Source of the DNA: a virus
Direction: 5' to 3' (one strand)
Length of the DNA: 61,565 nt
IMG/VR virus record: IMGVR_UViG_3300044941_000051
Span: 1-61,565 of that record
Shown here: one piece after another, positions 2,864 to 42,907 of the stretch
Numbering within the stretch: position 1 is the first letter of the stretch
How the letters are laid out: the number at the start of each line of letters is the position of its first letter
The notes under the pieces: generated by a model
The model's database searches: none
Told to the model about the DNA's origin: nothing
What the model saw: the letters and a program-made list of their open reading frames with translations, nothing else
Position numbers and translations under genes: made by a program

Positions 2864-5470
2864 ATGAGCGAAGCGGTCTTCACCGCTGAGGAAATCGACC
2901 TGCTCCTGCAGAACGTCGACCGGCTCTCCGATGCCGAAGTGGCGGAGCTGCACAGGCTCGTCGAAGACTACGCAGAGCAGCAGAAAATCCACCGCCTCCA
3001 AACCGATCTCATCGCTTTCTGCCAGCACATGCAGGACGACTACAAGGTCGGTGCACACCACAAGCGGCTCGCTGCACTGTTGGAAGACATAGAAAGTGGA
3101 AGGAAGGACCGCATTTGCGTGTCCCTGGCTCCGCGCCACGGCAAGCAGCTTGCGCATGATACGTTGGTACCCACTCCACAAGGGTATAGACGACACGGAG
3201 ACCTCCGTCCCGGCGACTATGTGTTCGGTTTGGATGGGAAACCCACCCGAGTCGTCGCCATCGCACCCGAGACCGTGCAAGATGTCGAGGTCGAGTTCTC
3301 CAACGGAGAGGTTATACGGTGCCACGAAAACCACGAATGGGCCGTGCTGGATAGTCGGAAAAACCAAAACAGCCGGAAAGTCGAAGTTCATGAGACCCGC
3401 GTGTTGGAGGCGTATGTGTGGCGTGGTCCGGGAGGCGTGCGGGGGTCTCGCGCCGTTTGGCAGCTGCCCGACGCGGAGCCGTTGGAGTACCCCGAGCAAC
3501 AGCTACCCCTGCACCCCTACGCGTTGGGGGTCTGGCTTGGGGATGGCGCAACCACAGCACCCGCAGTGACCGGGGTTGACCAGGAGCTGTTCCAGGCGTT
3601 TGCTCGTGTGACCGGGTACCACGAGACAATGCGGGTTGTTCATGCGACCACCGGGGTAACGACGGTAGCCTATGGGGGGCCGCGCCCCAACGTCCGAGGT
3701 CAGCTCTCCCAAGCCCTGTTTGACTTGGGTCTTCTGGGTAAGAACCGCACGGGTCGGAAGGCCATACCCGAACAGTACAAGCGGTCTAGCCAGGAGCAGC
3801 GCATGCAACTCCTTGCGGGCCTGATGGACACGGATGGGCATGTCGAGGCAAGGACCGGCAGGTGCCGGATCGTGGTGGCATCGGCCAGTCTTGCGGAGGA
3901 TATAAGAGAGCTCGTGGTCGGGCTTGGCTTCAGGGGCTATGTGACGCAACAGGAACCCACACTGTCAAGCTCCGGTGTACAGGGGCGCAGCACCGTCTAT
4001 ACCGTAGGGTTTCAGCCAACCGAGCCTCTGCCGTGCGTGCTGAGCCGGAAGCGCCCTGCGACCTTTTCAATGCGTCGCAAGATTTCAATCAGAGCCATTC
4101 GCAGAGTCGAGCCGCACTTGGGCCGGTGCATTCAGGTTGACCGGGCGGACGGGCTCTATCTCGTCGGTAAAACCCACATACCGACCCATAACTCCCAGCT
4201 TGTCTCAATCTACTTCGCCGCATGGTACATCGGCAAGAACCCCACACATAAGGTCATGCTGGTTTCGCACACGACAGACCTTGCGGTCGACTTCGGGCGA
4301 AAGATCAGAAACCTCGTCGCCACCGAAAAGTACAAAGAAGTCTTCCCCGGCGTCACGCTTGCCCCCGACAGCAAGAGTGCCGGTAGGTGGAATACGAACA
4401 TGGGCGGCGAGTTTTTCGCAGCCGGGGTCGGTGCCGCACTCGCCGGGCGCGGCGCACACATGCTGATTATCGACGACCCACATAGCGAACAGGACGTGCT
4501 GTCAGGGAACTTCTCTACCTTCCAGAAAGCTTACGAGTGGTTCACTTTCGGCGCACGCACGCGACTGATGCCCGGGGGTAAAGTCGCAATCGTCGCGACG
4601 CGCTGGGCACCGCACGACCTCATTGGCCGTGTCATCGGTGACATGGCGAAGCAGAATGGTGCCGATCAGTACGAAATCTTCGAGTTTCCGGCTATTTTGG
4701 AGGTTGAAAAGACCGACGAGGCCACAGGCGAGGTCAAGATAGTACAAAAGGCACTGTGGCCGGAGTTCTTCGACCTGCCCGCCCTGCTGCGGACCAAGGC
4801 GTCGATGCCTGCGTACCAGTGGAATGCCCAATACCAGCAGCAGCCCACTGCCGAAGAGGCCGCCATCATCAAGCGGGAGTGGTGGCGCAAATGGGAGCGG
4901 GAGCAGCCGCCCCGCTGCGACTACGTCATCATGACTATCGACGCCGCGGCCGAGGCCCACAACCGTGCCGACTACACGGCTATCACCGTCTGGGGGGTGT
5001 TCGACAACGAGACGGAAGGCAACCGCGCCATCATCCTGCTCCATTCGGTCAAGGAGCGGTACGAGTTCCCCGAGCTGAAGCGGCAGACACTGCAGATGTA
5101 TCGCGACTGGGAGCCCGACGCATTCATCGTCGAGAAGAAGTCCGCTGGCGTCGCCTTGTACCAGGAGCTGCGGCGCATGGGCATCCCTGTGCAGGAGTAC
5201 ACTCCGCACCGTGGAAGCGGAGACAAGACCGCGCGCCTCAATAGCGTGGCCGACATCGTCTCTTCCGGCGTGGTCTGGGTGCCGGACAGGCGCTGGGCGG
5301 AAGAACTCGTCGAAGAGATCGCGGCTTTCCCGTTCGGGCCCCATGACGACCTGGTCGACGCTACGACAATCGCGCTCATGCGGTTCCGCCAGGGCGGGTT
5401 CATCGCACTGCCGACAGATGAGTTGGACGAGGATAAGTTCGCGTTGCCCCGCAAAGCGGACTACTATTGA
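2864..5470 (+). CDS. terL: Terminase large subunit with intein in Walker A
   Basis: DNA-packaging ATPase and nuclease, 868 residues before splicing and 519 after. The extein P-loop is APRHGK (to residue 94) continuing with SQLVS from residue 444; Walker B is MLIIDDPHSEQ near residue 535; the C-terminal RNase H-like nuclease shows MTIDAAAEAHNRADY, FIVEKKSAG and FGPHDDLVDA. Residues 95-443 are an intein (separate entry) that splits the Walker A lysine from the following serine, so packaging ATPase activity must depend on splicing. The gene overlaps nothing but is tightly spaced after the 2560-2847 gene. Its last 46 bases are duplicated at 5505-5550. Confidence 0.93.
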   Translation: MSEAVFTAEEIDLLLQNVDRLSDAEVAELHRLVEDYAEQQKIHRLQTDLIAFCQHMQDDYKVGAHHKRLAALLEDIESGRKDRICVSLAPRHGKQLAHDTLVPTPQGYRRHGDLRPGDYVFGLDGKPTRVVAIAPETVQDVEVEFSNGEVIRCHENHEWAVLDSRKNQNSRKVEVHETRVLEAYVWRGPGGVRGSRAVWQLPDAEPLEYPEQQLPLHPYALGVWLGDGATTAPAVTGVDQELFQAFARVTGYHETMRVVHATTGVTTVAYGGPRPNVRGQLSQALFDLGLLGKNRTGRKAIPEQYKRSSQEQRMQLLAGLMDTDGHVEARTGRCRIVVASASLAEDIRELVVGLGFRGYVTQQEPTLSSSGVQGRSTVYTVGFQPTEPLPCVLSRKRPATFSMRRKISIRAIRRVEPHLGRCIQVDRADGLYLVGKTHIPTHNSQLVSIYFAAWYIGKNPTHKVMLVSHTTDLAVDFGRKIRNLVATEKYKEVFPGVTLAPDSKSAGRWNTNMGGEFFAAGVGAALAGRGAHMLIIDDPHSEQDVLSGNFSTFQKAYEWFTFGARTRLMPGGKVAIVATRWAPHDLIGRVIGDMAKQNGADQYEIFEFPAILEVEKTDEATGEVKIVQKALWPEFFDLPALLRTKASMPAYQWNAQYQQQPTAEEAAIIKREWWRKWEREQPPRCDYVIMTIDAAAEAHNRADYTAITVWGVFDNETEGNRAIILLHSVKERYEFPELKRQTLQMYRDWEPDAFIVEKKSAGVALYQELRRMGIPVQEYTPHRGSGDKTARLNSVADIVSSGVVWVPDRRWAEELVEEIAAFPFGPHDDLVDATTIALMRFRQGGFIALPTDELDEDKFALPRKADYY
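3146..4192 (+). mobile_element. Class 3-type intein with LAGLIDADG endonuclease
   Basis: A 349-residue insertion between PRHGK and SQLVS. It begins with Gln, not Cys or Ser (QLAHDTLVPTPQGYRRHGD), then block B has CHENHEW with Trp, block F has GRCIQVD with Cys, and block G is PTHN followed by Ser. Trp in B, Cys in F and Thr in G is the WCT signature of class 3 inteins, which lack a first-residue nucleophile and use the block F Cys. The homing endonuclease core has two LAGLIDADG-type motifs, LGVWLGDG (Asp 227 of the precursor) and LAGLMDTDG (Asp 324). The boundaries follow from the intact terminase P-loop. Class assignment is from motifs only. Confidence 0.85.
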
Positions 5471-5550
5471 AGTAGGTGGCGTTGCGAGCGCCCCGCTGGG
5501 GCGCGACGAGGATAAGTTCGCGTTGCCCCGCAAAGCGGACTACTATTGAA
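5426..5550 (+). repeat. Duplication of the terL 3-prime end around a hairpin
   Basis: 5426-5471 and 5505-5550 are a 46-base perfect direct repeat including the stop codon. The 33-base spacer contains GCGCCCC-GCT-GGGGCGC, a stem-loop. The second copy lies in the portal leader and is not part of a gene. Confidence 0.9.
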
Positions 5551-5601
5551 ATAAGTGCCCGCGTGGTACACACGGCGGAGCTGTGTGAAGGAGCGAACGA
5601 A

Positions 5602-8181
5602 GTGAACGTCGACAAGCCCTTGGTGCCGTTCCGGCCTCCGTACGACCCCGAGACCGGTGCGCCGACGGGTGCTTCCGACGCCCCCGGCGCTCTCGGCGCC
5701 CCCGGCGCTCTCGACGTTTCCATCGAGCTCGAACTTGCTCCGGGAAGTGTTAGTGTGGCGCTCGACGGAGACGACCTCGTCATCGAGTTCGGCCCGAAGG
5801 ACCCTGGTGCTTCCGGTAGCCCCGACGACCACACGGCCAACCTTGCCGAATACCTCGAAGACAGCGAGCTGCAGAGCCTGGCCTCGGAGCTCGTGGCCGA
5901 TTTCGAAGAAGACCTGCGCAGCCGGGAGGCCTGGGCACGTGCCTACGTGCAAGGACTCGACCTGCTGGGGATGAAGATCGAGGAGCGAACGCAGCCTTGG
6001 GCCGGGGCGTCCGGGGTGTTCCACCCGATGCTCGCCGAGTCCGCCGTGCGGTTTCAGGCGCAGGCCATGAGCGAGATGATGCCGGCCGGGGGACCCGTCG
6101 GCACAAAGATCATCGGCAAGATGACGCGAGAGCGCGCCGAACAGGCCGTGCGGGTCAAGTCCGAGCTGAACTACCTCATCACCGAGGAGATGTCCGAGTA
6201 CCGGGAAGAGATGGAGGCGCTGACATTCCGGCTTCCGCTGGCCGGCTCCGCCTTCAAGAAAGTCTACTACGACCCGGTCGAGGACCAGCCCGTTGCCGTA
6301 TTCGTGCCAGCGGAAGACTTCGTGGTCTCCTACGGTGCCTCCAGCCTCAAGCGGTGTCCGCGGTATACGCATGTTATGCGCAAATACCCGAACGAGGTCA
6401 GGAAACTGCAGGTCGAGGGCTTCTATCGTGATGTCGAGCTGCCGGAACCGGCGGCAGAGATCAGCGACATCCAGGAGAAGTACAACGAGCTGTCCGGGGC
6501 CGAGGTCTCGGCGAGCGACGACGACCGGCACATGCTGCTGGAGATGCACGTCGACATCGACCTGCCTGAACCCTTCGCCGACCCCGATGGGGTGGCACGC
6601 CCCTACGTCGTCACAATCGACAAGTCGTCGCGCACCATCCTCTCTATTCGCCGAAATTGGTACGAGGACGACCCGCGCAAGCGCAAGCGCATGCACTTTG
6701 TGCATTACCTCTACCTCCCCGGTATGGGCTTCTACGGTATCGGGCTTATCCATCTGCTTGGTGGGCTGGCGAAGGCGTCGACATCCATCCTGCGGCAGCT
6801 GATCGACGCGGGCACGCTGGCGAACCTGCAGGCAGGGTTCAAGGCTCGGGGTGCCAGGGTCAAGGGCGACAACACCCCACTGATGCCGGGCGAGTTCCGG
6901 GACGTGGACGTGCCGAGCGGGGCGCTTAAGGACGCCATCATGCCCCTGCCGTTCAAGGAGCCCTCGCAGACGCTGTACCAGCTGCTAGGCAACCTGGTCG
7001 ACGAGGGCCGCAGGATCGGGTCCGTCGCCGATATCCAGGTCGGCGACATCAGTAACAACGCGCCGGTGGGCACCACGCTGGCGCTCATGGAGCGCTCGCT
7101 CAAGGTCATGTCGGGCGTGCAGGCGCGGATGCACGCGGCCCAGGGCAAGGAGCTGAAGCTGCTCGCGCGGGTCGTGCACGACTTCATGGGCCCCAAGTAC
7201 AGGTTCGATGTCGGCGGAGACTTCAACCGGCAAAAAGATTTCGATGTCGAAACCATCGACGTGGTGCCCGTGTCGGACCCCAACGCTTCCACCATGGCCC
7301 AGCGCATCATGCAGTACCAGGCCGCGCTGCAGCTCTCCCAGCAAGCGCCGCAGTTGTACGATCTCGCTCGACTGCACCGGCAGATGCTCGAGGTGCTGGG
7401 TATCCAGGACGCGGGCGACATCGTGAAACTCGCCGACGAGCTGAAGCCGATGGACCCCGTGGCCGAGAACATGGCTATCCTGGTCCAGTCGCCGGTGAAG
7501 GCACATCAGTACCAGGACCACGAGGCGCACATTGCTGTGCATATCGCTGCGGCGCAGGATCCGAAGATCCAGCAGATGGTCGGGCAGTCTCCGTTCGCAA
7601 GCGCTATCCAGGCAACCATGGCCGCGCACATCACCGAGCACCTCGCCATGCAGTACCGCAAGGAGATCGAGAAGAAGCTCGGGGTGCCGCTGCCGCCGGA
7701 AGGCAAGCCGCTGCCGGAGGACGTCGAGGTCGAGCTGTCGCGCGCTGTGGCGCTCGCCGCGGACAAGCTGCTGCGTCAGAGCATGGCCGAGGCTGCACAA
7801 CAGCAGGCCGAGCAGGCCGAGCAGGACCCGCTCACCCAGATCCAGCGCAAGGAGCTCGAGCTGAAGGAGCTCGAGCTGCAGCACAAGATGGAGATGGACA
7901 AGCAGAAGCTCGTGCTCGAAGGACTCAGGGCCGGCGGGAACCTGGCCGTGCGCCGCGAGGAGATTGCCTCGGCCGACGAGCGCGAAGCCGCGCGGGTCGG
8001 TGTCCGTCTGGCTACGCAGGTCATCAGCACCGCGGGCGACGAGACTCTGGCGTCCATCAAGGCCGGTGTCGAGCTGGCCAAGGCCGCTCACGCGGGCCTC
8101 ATCAACCGAGACGACAACAAGGCCAGGAGCGACTCCACGACACCGAAGATCGGCCCTGGCGGCGAGGGTGCGCCTGAATGA
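5602..8181 (+). CDS. Portal (head-to-tail connector) protein
   Basis: A long acidic protein, 859 residues from a GTG start at 5602, which has AAGGAG eight bases upstream; upstream codons come from the terL end duplication. Portals form the dodecameric ring through which DNA enters and leaves. Evidence is position after terL, size, the early AYVQGLDLLGMKIEERTQPW region (entry helices and substrate-like loop as in P22-like portals), and the long C-terminal coiled coil, roughly residues 720-800, rich in Gln, Glu and Lys, like a P22 barrel. It overlaps the next gene by an ATGA. Confidence 0.85.
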   Translation: MNVDKPLVPFRPPYDPETGAPTGASDAPGALGAPGALDVSIELELAPGSVSVALDGDDLVIEFGPKDPGASGSPDDHTANLAEYLEDSELQSLASELVADFEEDLRSREAWARAYVQGLDLLGMKIEERTQPWAGASGVFHPMLAESAVRFQAQAMSEMMPAGGPVGTKIIGKMTRERAEQAVRVKSELNYLITEEMSEYREEMEALTFRLPLAGSAFKKVYYDPVEDQPVAVFVPAEDFVVSYGASSLKRCPRYTHVMRKYPNEVRKLQVEGFYRDVELPEPAAEISDIQEKYNELSGAEVSASDDDRHMLLEMHVDIDLPEPFADPDGVARPYVVTIDKSSRTILSIRRNWYEDDPRKRKRMHFVHYLYLPGMGFYGIGLIHLLGGLAKASTSILRQLIDAGTLANLQAGFKARGARVKGDNTPLMPGEFRDVDVPSGALKDAIMPLPFKEPSQTLYQLLGNLVDEGRRIGSVADIQVGDISNNAPVGTTLALMERSLKVMSGVQARMHAAQGKELKLLARVVHDFMGPKYRFDVGGDFNRQKDFDVETIDVVPVSDPNASTMAQRIMQYQAALQLSQQAPQLYDLARLHRQMLEVLGIQDAGDIVKLADELKPMDPVAENMAILVQSPVKAHQYQDHEAHIAVHIAAAQDPKIQQMVGQSPFASAIQATMAAHITEHLAMQYRKEIEKKLGVPLPPEGKPLPEDVEVELSRAVALAADKLLRQSMAEAAQQQAEQAEQDPLTQIQRKELELKELELQHKMEMDKQKLVLEGLRAGGNLAVRREEIASADEREAARVGVRLATQVISTAGDETLASIKAGVELAKAAHAGLINRDDNKARSDSTTPKIGPGGEGAPE

Positions 8182-39789: not shown

Positions 39790-40169
39790 GCTTTTCTCAC
39801 GGTGATGGTGTACTCCGAGTCCACGTTCAGCCCCGGGGGCATCTGGTCGGGGTGGTCTTCCAGGTAGGACTTCACGGCACCCTGGTTCAGGCGCTTCTCG
39901 AGGAACTCGGGGAGCTCGTTGTCCAGGATGAACCGGTACATTGACTCCCAGTCGCTGGTCCAGTACCGCGTCTTCAGAGTGCGGTAGACCAGCCCGGCCG
40001 GGGTTCGGACGCTGTCGACACCCTGCTCCTTGCAGTAGTCCAGCAGGGCCGCCTTGATGACCGACATATCCGCATCGAGCCGCTTCTCCTGCTCATTGAA
40101 CTGGGCGATAAGCGCCGCCTTGGCGTCCCGGATCTTCACGTAGGTCTTGATCAGCTTCGTTAGGTCCAT
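39786..40169 (-). CDS. Conserved phage replication-region protein (127 aa)
   Basis: Starts MDLTKLIKTYVKIRDAKAALI. The N-terminus is a coiled coil; the middle (LLDYCKEQGVDSVRTPAGLVYRTLKTRYWTSDWESMYRFILDNELPEFLEKRLNQ) is well known in phages next to helicase and nuclease genes. Its function is not established; a Gam-like or clamp-like role has been suggested for relatives by position only. Start chosen at ATG 40169; a frame extension of four residues is possible. Confidence 0.6.
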   Translation of the reverse strand: MDLTKLIKTYVKIRDAKAALIAQFNEQEKRLDADMSVIKAALLDYCKEQGVDSVRTPAGLVYRTLKTRYWTSDWESMYRFILDNELPEFLEKRLNQGAVKSYLEDHPDQMPPGLNVDSEYTITVRKA

Positions 40170-40206
40170 AGGTCTCTCCACTTATGTTTTGACACATCTA
40201 ACTCAG

Positions 40207-42633
40207 CTAGGCTTGTTTGTCAAGCTCGTTCTTATATAGCTTGATGATCTGCGTGTGGATGTCAATCTTATTATCTAGCAGCTCGTAGACACGTTTTTCT
40301 ACAGGCGACCCGACCAGCTGGAAGACGGTACAGCGGTTGGTCTGCCCCTTGCGGTGCACCCGCGCGTTGGCCTGCGCGTAGATCTCCAGCGACGGCACCG
40401 GGCCCCACCAGACGACGGTGTCGGCGGCGGTCAGCGTCACCCCGTGCGCTGCGGCCTGGGGCTGGATGATCAGCACCCGAGGGTCGGGTTCGGTCTGGAA
40501 CCGATGGAAGATCTGCGTGCGCTCCGAAGCCGGCACCTCGCCGCTGATGAGCTCGCATGTGTACCTGTCAGCGCGCAGGTTCTTGGCCACCAGCTTGATC
40601 GTGTGCCTGAACGGCACGAAGACAAGCACCTTCCGCGGGGCTTCCTGCAGCACCTCCAGGAGGGCGCTGTACCGGCCGGACACGTCGAACTCCAACGTGT
40701 TCTGGTTGTCGGTGTAGACCGATCCGCACGCAATCTGGATTAGCTTGTTCATTACCACAGCGGCGTTGGCTGCAGTGACGCTTTCGCCCGATGCCTCTAG
40801 CAGTGCTTGTTTGCGCAGCTTGTCGTAGTAGAATTTCTGCTGCTTGCTCATCGGCACGTCGCGGCGGACGTACACCATCTCCGGCAGATCGAGGCACTCC
40901 ATCTTGGAAAACCGGATCGCCGGCTGCAGTGCGTTGTGCACGGTGTCGACCGCTGTGTCTTTGACACCCCACTTGAACTGGGTGATCTTGTACATGACCA
41001 TGTCGCGGAACGCCGTGAACGTCGACGGCACGCCGCGCGGGTTGACCAGCTTTGCCAGCCCATATGCCTGCACCGGCCCCTGCGCTGCGGGAGTGCCTGT
41101 CATCATCCACAGCCAGGTTTCGGGTTGCAATATCGCGTTCAATGCGCGCCAGCGGGCGGTGTTCTTGTTGGAGTAATGGGAGCAGTTGTGGACTAGGTAT
41201 CCGGGCCCAACAAAGTAGTTAGGTGTTCCGTCAACTTCGAGGTTATAGACGTATTCTCCACTTCGTGGTTCCAGATAGACAACACTGTCCACCCAAGCTC
41301 CTGCAGCTTGGCGGTTTTCTTCGCATCCCGCTGTTGGCCAAGCGCAGTCCGATGCGATGATCCGTTCACCTCCAGACCTACTTTTTTCTTTGGCCATGCG
41401 AAGTCGAGCTTGTAGTTTGTAGGATAGCCCAGCTGCCGTCCCCCCAACGCTACTGGGAAGTTCCATACCCAGTTGGGGGGCAGCATCGGCATCAGTATAC
41501 TCTCTGAGGTCGTAGGCCCATGCCCGTTGCCCCCGCGCGTAACCGGACGATACCCAGCGGTCTTTGCTATCTCGGATAGTTTTTGTCGGGTTGCTTCTGA
41601 TTTCGGCACCCCCCTTTGGAGCTGGGAAGTCTCCCACCTCTGCTTTGCGGTGAGATTTCGAAGCGCTGATTGACCCGGATGTAGGGCATGCCATCTCTTC
41701 CGACCGCAAGATTTCGAGCAAGTCATCCCGACTTGCGTGCCACGCCTTCTCCAGAAATTCCACGCCGACGTTCTTTGTCGGTACTCTTTTGCGCAGATAC
41801 CGCAGATCATGTGTAGAAATGAGCCGTCGACCCGCAAGATTTCTGGCGCATACCCAACCCCAATCAGTGAAGAACGGATGTTCTGGAGTGCATCGGATGA
41901 CGTCACCATTTTTTAGTCGCACCTCCACCAGGCTTGTTGGGACTGATTTCGTCGTAGCTTTAATAGTACGAACTCCAGCAGAAGTAAGAACGCGGTCTCC
42001 TGCGACAAGGGTTTCTATTTTTCGGGGGCCTTCGGGGGTGTGGACCTCGGTCCCAGCCACAAAACACTCGTCGACGATCACCAGATCGAAGCCGCCCTCG
42101 ACCAGCTCCTTCTTCACCACTCCGACGCCGTCGTAGTTGATGATGATGAACTGCGCGCCGTTGGCGATGACCTTCCGGCGCTTTTCGGCGGTGCCGTAGG
42201 CAACGTCGACTGTGCGGTGCATGGCTACGGAGAATAGGTCACTCCGCCATGCCGCGTCCATGATCGACACGGGGCACACAATGAGTACGCGCTTTACCGC
42301 TCCGATGGAAAGCAGATAGTCCGCAGCCCAAATTGCGCTGGCGCTTTTCCCCGTCCCTTGCTCGTTAAAGCAAAAACACCTTTTGTGCAGAGTGAGAAAC
42401 GCGGCAGTTGCCCGCTGATGGGCCATAGGGCGGAACCGCCCCGGCCAGCCGTAGTTCTTCTCAATCGGGGATGGTGCAGGCAGGCTGAGCTTACGCAGGG
42501 CTTGCGCCTGCGGCAGGGCCCAGCGCACGGCAACGGTGTGTTCGTCTAGAGCCTTGGCGTCAGGCACGGCTGCCAGAACCCGCGCGGGGTTCTTCAGGCG
42601 CAGCAAGAGCGCCTTGTTCTCGATGATCTGCAT
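40207..42633 (-). CDS. SNF2-like DEAD/H helicase with intein at the DE box
   Basis: 808 residues before splicing, 514 after. Walker A is NEQGTGKS (90-97), motif II is VIVDE (to residue 189) followed after splicing by CSHYS, motif III is MMTGTP, motif VI is ANARVHRKGQ. This is the SNF2/DEAD-like fold used by phage recombination or fork-remodelling helicases. An intein, residues 190-483 (41185-42066), separates Glu189 and Cys484 exactly at the Walker B, so unspliced protein cannot be active. The intein also contains a second gene in another frame, see separate entries. Confidence 0.88.
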   Translation of the reverse strand: MQIIENKALLLRLKNPARVLAAVPDAKALDEHTVAVRWALPQAQALRKLSLPAPSPIEKNYGWPGRFRPMAHQRATAAFLTLHKRCFCFNEQGTGKSASAIWAADYLLSIGAVKRVLIVCPVSIMDAAWRSDLFSVAMHRTVDVAYGTAEKRRKVIANGAQFIIINYDGVGVVKKELVEGGFDLVIVDECFVAGTEVHTPEGPRKIETLVAGDRVLTSAGVRTIKATTKSVPTSLVEVRLKNGDVIRCTPEHPFFTDWGWVCARNLAGRRLISTHDLRYLRKRVPTKNVGVEFLEKAWHASRDDLLEILRSEEMACPTSGSISASKSHRKAEVGDFPAPKGGAEIRSNPTKTIRDSKDRWVSSGYARGQRAWAYDLREYTDADAAPQLGMELPSSVGGTAAGLSYKLQARLRMAKEKSRSGGERIIASDCAWPTAGCEENRQAAGAWVDSVVYLEPRSGEYVYNLEVDGTPNYFVGPGYLVHNCSHYSNKNTARWRALNAILQPETWLWMMTGTPAAQGPVQAYGLAKLVNPRGVPSTFTAFRDMVMYKITQFKWGVKDTAVDTVHNALQPAIRFSKMECLDLPEMVYVRRDVPMSKQQKFYYDKLRKQALLEASGESVTAANAAVVMNKLIQIACGSVYTDNQNTLEFDVSGRYSALLEVLQEAPRKVLVFVPFRHTIKLVAKNLRADRYTCELISGEVPASERTQIFHRFQTEPDPRVLIIQPQAAAHGVTLTAADTVVWWGPVPSLEIYAQANARVHRKGQTNRCTVFQLVGSPVEKRVYELLDNKIDIHTQIIKLYKNELDKQA
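41185..42066 (-). mobile_element. Class 1-type intein (294 aa)
   Basis: Starts CFVAGTEVHTPEGPRKIETL (block A, Cys1), has block B RCTPEHPFF with TxxH, and ends with YNLEVDGTPNYFV and GYLVHN, followed by Cys+1 of the extein. No LAGLIDADG motif is seen in this frame. The region between block B and block F is also read in a second frame as a complete endonuclease gene. Boundaries are set by continuity of the helicase motif II. Confidence 0.9.
41193..41909 (-). CDS. Homing endonuclease nested out-of-frame in the intein
   Basis: 238 residues in the +1 frame relative to the helicase and intein. ATG 41909 has GGAGGT 11 bases upstream. Residues 36-68 form a C-x2-C ... C-x3-C zinc site (Cys36, 39, 64, 68); residues 100-119 (GVPKSEATRQKLSEIAKTAG) look like a NUMOD3 DNA-binding motif; residues 166-217 (YKLDFAWPKKKVGLEVNG, SSH, RDAKKTAKLQELGWTVLSIWNHEV) are a Vsr/DUF559-type nuclease with Asp169, Glu180, His186 and Asp195. 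The stop is 8 bases before the intein end, so the gene overlaps the coding for intein blocks B, F and G. It is the likely mobility enzyme of this intein. Confidence 0.85.
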   Translation of the reverse strand: MVTSSDALQNIRSSLIGVGYAPEILRVDGSFLHMICGICAKEYRQRTSAWNFWRRRGTQVGMTCSKSCGRKRWHALHPGQSALRNLTAKQRWETSQLQRGVPKSEATRQKLSEIAKTAGYRPVTRGGNGHGPTTSESILMPMLPPNWVWNFPVALGGRQLGYPTNYKLDFAWPKKKVGLEVNGSSHRTALGQQRDAKKTAKLQELGWTVLSIWNHEVENTSITSKLTEHLTTLLGPDT

Positions 42634-42637
42634 CGGC

Positions 42638-42907
42638 TCACTTCTTCGGGGGTTTGCTCATTCGGCCGCCAGCGGCACGGTTCTTGCTCGGAGACTGCAG
42701 GCGGACACCGTCGGCGTTAGACCCGCCTCGGGCCAGCGGCTTGTTGTGCGCGAGGTCCTTGCCGGCGCGAGCGCTGCGGCCGTTCTTCTTGTCGAAGGCG
42801 TCGCGGGCCCGCTCCCGCTCCTTGCGGGCGTCATGCTCACCGCGAGCGATCTGCAGGCGGTATTCTCTCTTGTAGTTCCGGTCGCGTTCGGGGTTCTTGT
42901 AGGGCAT
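42638..42907 (-). CDS. Small HNH-like phage protein (89 aa)
   Basis: A very basic protein: MPYKNPERDRNYKREYRLQIARGEHD, then KDLAHNKPLARGGSNADGVRLQSPSKNRAAGG. The D-x-AHNKPLxxGGSN pattern matches phage HNH-type proteins, though the usual HNH zinc cysteines are not visible, so catalysis is uncertain. It starts one base inside the next gene's stop, within the replication operon. Confidence 0.55.
   Translation of the reverse strand: MPYKNPERDRNYKREYRLQIARGEHDARKERERARDAFDKKNGRSARAGKDLAHNKPLARGGSNADGVRLQSPSKNRAAGGRMSKPPKK

Follow-up and report, generated by a model that had tools for sequence, protein, structure and literature searches.

The usual teaching divides inteins into in-frame endonuclease fusions, mini-inteins and split inteins. 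The viral record IMGVR_UViG_3300044941_000051 of IMG/VR (61,565 nucleotides, referred to here over its full length as the window) contains, within a DNA helicase gene, what is very probably a mobile intein of another layout, in which the homing endonuclease (HEN) has a gene of its own, superimposed on the intein in the +1 frame.

Several described systems are related to this element. Fractured genes, reported by Dassa et al. in 2009, are said to combine split inteins with a free-standing Vsr-like HEN. Their splicing domain is related to that of the window intein, for which the gp41-1 intein is a PDB profile match (2.4e-19), and the nuclease is said to have the same broad fold. The intein halves are split in the fractured genes, whereas the window type is unsplit and one open reading frame (ORF) carries both halves. 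In canonical mobile inteins, of the PI-SceI type, the endonuclease is translated in frame as a part of the intein (PMC3943268). The window element shares with these the Hint splicing domain, the insertion in a conserved motif and the associated homing endonuclease, but the endonuclease is the separate product of another frame.

Out-of-frame endonucleases have been noted in phages. In the ShiLan domain and the Pacc40 insertion, an endonuclease ORF lies out of frame within a phage gene that stays open, and for the ShiLan element, an HNH nuclease in the third frame, the authors find neither a splicing domain nor a ribosome-binding site (PMC11855218). In comparison, the window element has a splicing domain and a DUF559 nuclease. 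Membership of Pacc40 and ShiLan in the window HEN family was considered and rejected, as the alternate-frame ORF of Pacc40, which lies in frame +2, encodes a nuclease of another kind that the HEN profile does not match. A 2015 remark on a brucellaphage describes ORF 8 of the terminase gene (687 nt, about 228 aa) as a "putative intein-encoded HNH endonuclease... out of frame" (PMC4422536). The passages of that article on ORF 8 term it HNH and give no dual-frame analysis; judged by this description, it may be a member of the window HEN family. The authors of the phi673 genome noted a putative intein in gp43 that is absent from phi674 (PMC6132909). This helicase intein is a member of the window family, and the overlapping endonuclease is not mentioned where that article describes the intein.

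The preliminary description of the window could name no precedent for its arrangement. The brucellaphage terminase and the ShiLan element are partial precedents, and the two-frame layout is therefore not categorically new. It is widespread, with more than 200 distinct relatives (see below), and was found noted before only in isolated cases, though a 2025 preprint on non-canonical actinobacteriophage inteins could hold more.

The intein and the endonuclease gene

The host gene is an ORF of 808 aa, intein included, for an SF2 (SNF2/ResIII-type) DNA helicase (positions 40207–42633; all features given for the window are on the minus strand). Its C-extein matches PHROG 62, DNA helicase (1e-71). The class 1 intein has 294 aa (41185–42066, helicase residues 190–483) and interrupts helicase motif II (Walker B), as VIVDE/C...HN/CSHY, with the slashes marking the junctions. 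Its reading frame is continuous with both exteins. The blocks CFVAGTEV, TPEHPFF, YNLEVDG and GYLVHN are followed by Cys at +1, so that the residues of class 1 inteins (Cys1, block B TxxH, block F, HN, and Cys, Ser or Thr at +1) are all present. The intein is also matched by the profiles Pfam Intein_splicing (1.9e-9), TIGR01445 (9e-9) and TIGR01443 (6e-5). The open helicase frame with its full set of splice blocks had been described from the letters alone, and the profile matches bear this out.

The structures of the intein and the HEN were predicted with AlphaFold2. In the intein, the N-terminal splicing half (residues 1–94, 41785–42066), with Cys1 and block B (TPEHP, including His63, at 41889–41875), is predicted to be folded (pLDDT mostly 95–98), and C1, T6 and H63 are invariant. 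Blocks F and G (residues 256–294, VYNLEVDGTPNYFVG...VHN, 41185–41301), the region matched by TIGR01443, are likewise predicted to be folded (pLDDT 94–97). Between them, residues 95–255 (41302–41784) are the HEN gene read through in the intein frame. This segment is free of stops and predicted to be mostly disordered (pLDDT about 40).

The HEN gene is complete, with 238 codons and a TAG stop (41193–41909), and the stop is located 8 nt ahead of the intein end. The protein matches Pfam DUF559 (6.5e-10), and 18 of its residues are invariant over 47 diverse relatives, with all 18 kept in the window. They include the four cysteines of a predicted zinc-binding site (C36, C39, C64 and C68, 41706–41804) and the predicted catalytic residues D169, E180, H186 and D195 (41325–41405). 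The nuclease, the zinc cysteines and the catalytic residues thus agree with the preliminary description. Its label of a NUMOD3-like motif was not recovered, with no match in Pfam or NCBIfam.

The HEN model has a pLDDT of 84 and is well predicted except for the first 18 residues, which are predicted to be disordered. The closest structural match is I-Bth0305I (PDB 3r3p), an enzyme that derives from a group I intron, with a probability of 1.00, a modest E value of 0.01 and a TM score of 0.61 by target; the sequence-profile match to it has an E value of 0.003. By its E-D-H-D type residues on a predicted Vsr/PD-(D/E)XK-like fold, the HEN is an EDxHD (Vsr/DUF559-like) nuclease. It shares this fold with I-Bth0305I, but it adds the N-terminal zinc module and sits in an intein. 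A group I or group II intron carrying the ORF was rejected, there being no Rfam match at E up to 1 across 40100–42700.

Immediately 5′ of the helicase gene lies an ORF of 89 aa (42638–42907) that is HNH-like by eye (HNKPLARGGSN..NR). It belongs to PHROG 4590, with no assigned function, and has no Pfam match.

Coding in two frames, in the window and in the family

Both frames are open far beyond expectation. When the HEN codons of the window are permuted synonymously, the intein frame acquires a mean of 7.1 stops and stays open in 0.05% of the trials; permutation of the intein codons gives a mean of 4.5 stops in the HEN frame, which again stays open in 0.05%. Over 77 nonredundant loci, the shuffles predict 6.9 stops for the intein frame and 3.0 for the HEN frame, and neither frame contains any. 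A chance second ORF was rejected on these shuffles and on the conservation across loci.

The distribution of the constraint was examined with 12 independent pairs drawn from 29 window-type inteins, as differences per intein codon position 1/2/3. Intein residues 1–50 (0.11/0.07/0.39) and 55–72 (0.06/0.06/0.39) have the pattern of intein constraint. In residues 96–200 (0.32/0.13/0.14) and 201–254 (0.22/0.09/0.10) the pattern is that of HEN constraint, because position 1 of the intein is position 3 of the HEN. Two zones are constrained in both frames. The first is residues 73–95 (41782–41850; 0.13/0.05/0.12, compared to 0.39 at the third position upstream), which encodes a β-hairpin and the CxxC of the HEN. 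The second is residues 256–290 (41197–41301; 0.12/0.10/0.18), corresponding to blocks F and G and, in the HEN, to the C-terminal LGW...N and the last helix. The helicase C-extein, for comparison, has 0.21/0.14/0.49. An OLGenie-style count with 11 relatives over the overlap gives dNN/dNS of 0.33 for the HEN and dNN/dSN of 0.50 for the intein; the purifying selection that had been proposed as a check is thus seen in the HEN frame by both approaches.

Despite the whole overlap being open in both frames, two-frame coding is therefore found mainly in the two zones, which have about 23 and 35 codons (about 58 in total). In the stretch between them the constraint is on the HEN, and the intein frame, though open, encodes a disordered loop. 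The parts of the intein that are predicted to be folded (1–94 and 256–294) agree with the codon-position zones. The proposal that about 717 bases code for two proteins holds for the open frames, which run throughout, but amino-acid constraint on both is confined to residues 73–95 and 256–290.

The same layout is found in many other genomes. A tblastn search with the window HEN finds 38 isolate phage records, and every match that was opened falls within a helicase ORF. The intein site, the HEN and the +1 frame are the same in Pseudomonas phage MR14, Vibrio phages CP-T1, 104E43.1 and 1.088.O, and Corynebacterium phage phi673. Larger scans covered IMG/VR, for which four alignments of the HEN and one of the intein were used, and GTDB genomes, for which one HEN alignment was used; an open second frame was not a criterion in any of them. 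They produced 463 HEN-bearing loci, 278 of them nonredundant. In 223 of the 278, the −1 frame relative to the HEN is open through the whole HEN and holds both intein blocks, and 7 more are fragmentary contigs with the same layout. The third frame has a mean of 14.6 stops and never fewer than 2. No locus among the 278 has the HEN in frame with the splicing domain, and none is a split-intein intermediate, one ORF spanning both intein halves in the intein-linked loci that were checked. The remaining loci are mostly short DUF559 proteins that are encoded on chromosomes and have no intein; those among the genome hits (L102–L154, except L111, L112 and L130) were set aside as not being HENs of the window type.

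The host genes are SF2 helicases, a terminase, a helicase-methylase and bacterial DnaX genes, and, judged by motif, most of the insertions share one DE/ position within Walker B. The splicing residues Cys1, TxxH, HN and Cys or Ser at +1 are conserved family-wide. In contigs assigned to bacterial metagenome-assembled genomes, dnaX-like clamp-loader genes carry inteins with an out-of-frame HEN (L093, L094 and L111), so this class extends beyond typical phage genes. In five loci, a second N-terminal intein block is located further 3′ in the same open frame (L079, 3581–4564; L082 and L083, 5504–6487; L208 and L209, 4303–4518), with a second C-terminal block as well in L079, L082 and L083, which suggests two inteins in one gene.

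Proposed expression, homing and splicing

The element would propagate by splicing, independent initiation, cleavage and homing. The helicase mRNA, read in frame 0, would produce a helicase-intein-helicase precursor, in which two folded splicing halves would flank the disordered loop of about 160 residues (the HEN gene in the wrong frame). The intein would excise itself and join ...VIVDE to CSHY.... Ribosomes would restart inside the intein on the same mRNA, at a Shine-Dalgarno (SD) sequence with ATG or TTG, to make the separate zinc-binding EDxHD nuclease. The nuclease would cut intein-free alleles at the motif II codons of the helicase (DE/A or DE/V), and repair off the occupied allele would copy the whole element along with a few bases on its flanks, among them the +1 Cys codon needed for splicing.

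For independent initiation, the window has a putative ribosome-binding site, GGAGGT (41921–41926), within the intein codons V-E-V and 11 nt ahead of the ATG at 41909, as had been read from the sequence. GAGGT is kept in 27 of the 29 closest inteins (the window subgroup), and the HEN start codon is TTG in 25 of them. The four inteins without TTG (the window, L025, L155 and L193) all have ATG two codons later, compared to 1 of the 25 with TTG (Fisher 2e-4, uncorrected for relatedness). Across the family, a good SD-start pair is present at 42 of 75 loci, with 23 expected. A simple scan for an internal promoter in the helicase gene found none.

Alternatively, the HEN could be made by ribosomal frameshifting out of the helicase/intein frame, as an N-extein-intein-HEN fusion. 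The overlap is open in both frames, so a shift inside it could give such a fusion, and many loci have no clear SD-start pair. However, the window subgroup conserves the SD sequence and the start codon inside intein codons, with loss of TTG coinciding with a nearby ATG. The first 18 HEN residues are free to vary as well as predicted to be disordered, as expected near an N-terminus, and the HEN start position differs among subfamilies, with some starts falling after block B. Frameshifting is therefore considered unlikely.

The homing step is best examined with occupied and empty alleles. No intein match is found in 78 of the 80 closest helicase relatives, and 71 of the 80 are confirmed to be uninterrupted at the insertion site, typically as DEATHYKN. 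The occupied gene of phi673 and the empty one of phi674 have exteins of equal length (DE/C...HN/CHH and DE/VHH), so the search for intein-free relatives that the preliminary description proposed finds the helicase continuous at the site. Of the 17 differences between the exteins, 7 fall in the first 78 nt downstream from the site, including the change from Val in phi674 to Cys in phi673 at +1 (p = 6e-6, or 3e-3 without the forced +1 codon). Homing with co-conversion would be expected to leave such a cluster.

Roles other than homing are known for some phage HENs and HNH proteins, and an active nuclease here could likewise serve in the exclusion of rival phages, in packaging or in defence. In line with such a role, the gene directly downstream of the free-standing HEN of L072 carries the GDE motif of the terminase-like hosts without an interruption. 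In comparison, homing agrees with the precise placement of the element in the conserved motif II/Walker B of several unrelated ATPases, with the empty alleles of close relatives and with the footprint in phi673 and phi674, and a non-homing role appears very unlikely.

Retention of the insert in the helicase as an unspliced loop, which has been proposed for the ShiLan element, is highly improbable. In its favour, the loop in the intein frame is long and disordered. Against it, the class 1 splicing residues are conserved family-wide, the prediction of the splicing domain has high confidence, and an insert left in the catalytic DExH motif should destroy the helicase. Hardly credible at all is a HEN frame that is a dead relic or a chance ORF with only the intein of importance: inteins do lose endonucleases, and the mini-intein L225 keeps only a C-terminal fossil of its HEN, but the window retains all 18 invariant residues and a frame that shuffled intein codons seldom leave open, and the HEN frame is under purifying selection and kept in hundreds of loci.

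Several points weigh against a mobile intein with an independently translated HEN. Splicing, HEN translation and cleavage are computational predictions. The loop in the intein frame could hinder folding or splicing, a point that AlphaFold cannot address. About 30 of the 75 loci have no SD-start pair by a simple rule, and the start-signal argument is firm for the window subgroup only. Relatedness was reduced in the rate tests, by independent pairs and nonredundant sets, rather than fully modelled, and the Fisher tests are uncorrected for phylogeny.

Free-standing copies and significance

Four full-length HENs are free-standing (L072, L130, L320 and L494), with 7, 2, 5 and 28 stops, respectively, in the −1 frame. 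They are placed separately, at four positions inside intein-linked clades, with good support for the first three and weaker support for L494. Being nested in this way, they look derived, as escapees from the intein-linked state. The HEN of L072 (3258–3911) overlaps the start of a large ORF (3901–5721) with an uninterrupted GDE motif; this ORF has no Pfam or PHROGs match and is terminase-like by motif only.

In L225, a mini-intein of 140 aa (3001–3420) has a +1 frame that still ends in LGWQALRFWNRDVMQNLPGCLSSILKSMERIPTS and a stop, the HEN having been deleted except for a fossil of the part beneath blocks F and G. It is the sole degenerate case that was seen. Intact inteins over a broken and unconserved second frame, the pattern named beforehand as contrary to a real second gene, do not describe the family, in which 223 nonredundant loci keep both. 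Two related mini-inteins, L229 and L231 (176 and 180 aa), are without an endonuclease of the window HEN family.

The fixed frame and the tree suggest a single origin of the two-frame element. The earlier suggestion of an intermediate between known states finds no support, as the layout is a stable and widespread state with the free-standing copies nested inside it. These elements probably form a major, ancient class of mobile inteins, in which the HEN is independently translated and overprinted in a fixed +1 frame. The C-terminal tail of the HEN would be the out-of-frame reading of blocks F and G, locking the nuclease to the splicing element, and free-standing HENs would arise by escape.

Annotation pipelines miss such second-frame endonucleases: the isolate phages examined annotate only the host gene there, as a helicase or a hypothetical protein. 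The family is one of the clearer large data sets on same-strand overlapping genes, with natural controls in the free-standing HENs that lose the second frame and the mini-intein that keeps its fossil. Split-intein engineering would gain from it many new splicing domains able to accommodate long disordered loops. For the biology of inteins, the layout implies that a HEN can be expressed independently of intein translation.
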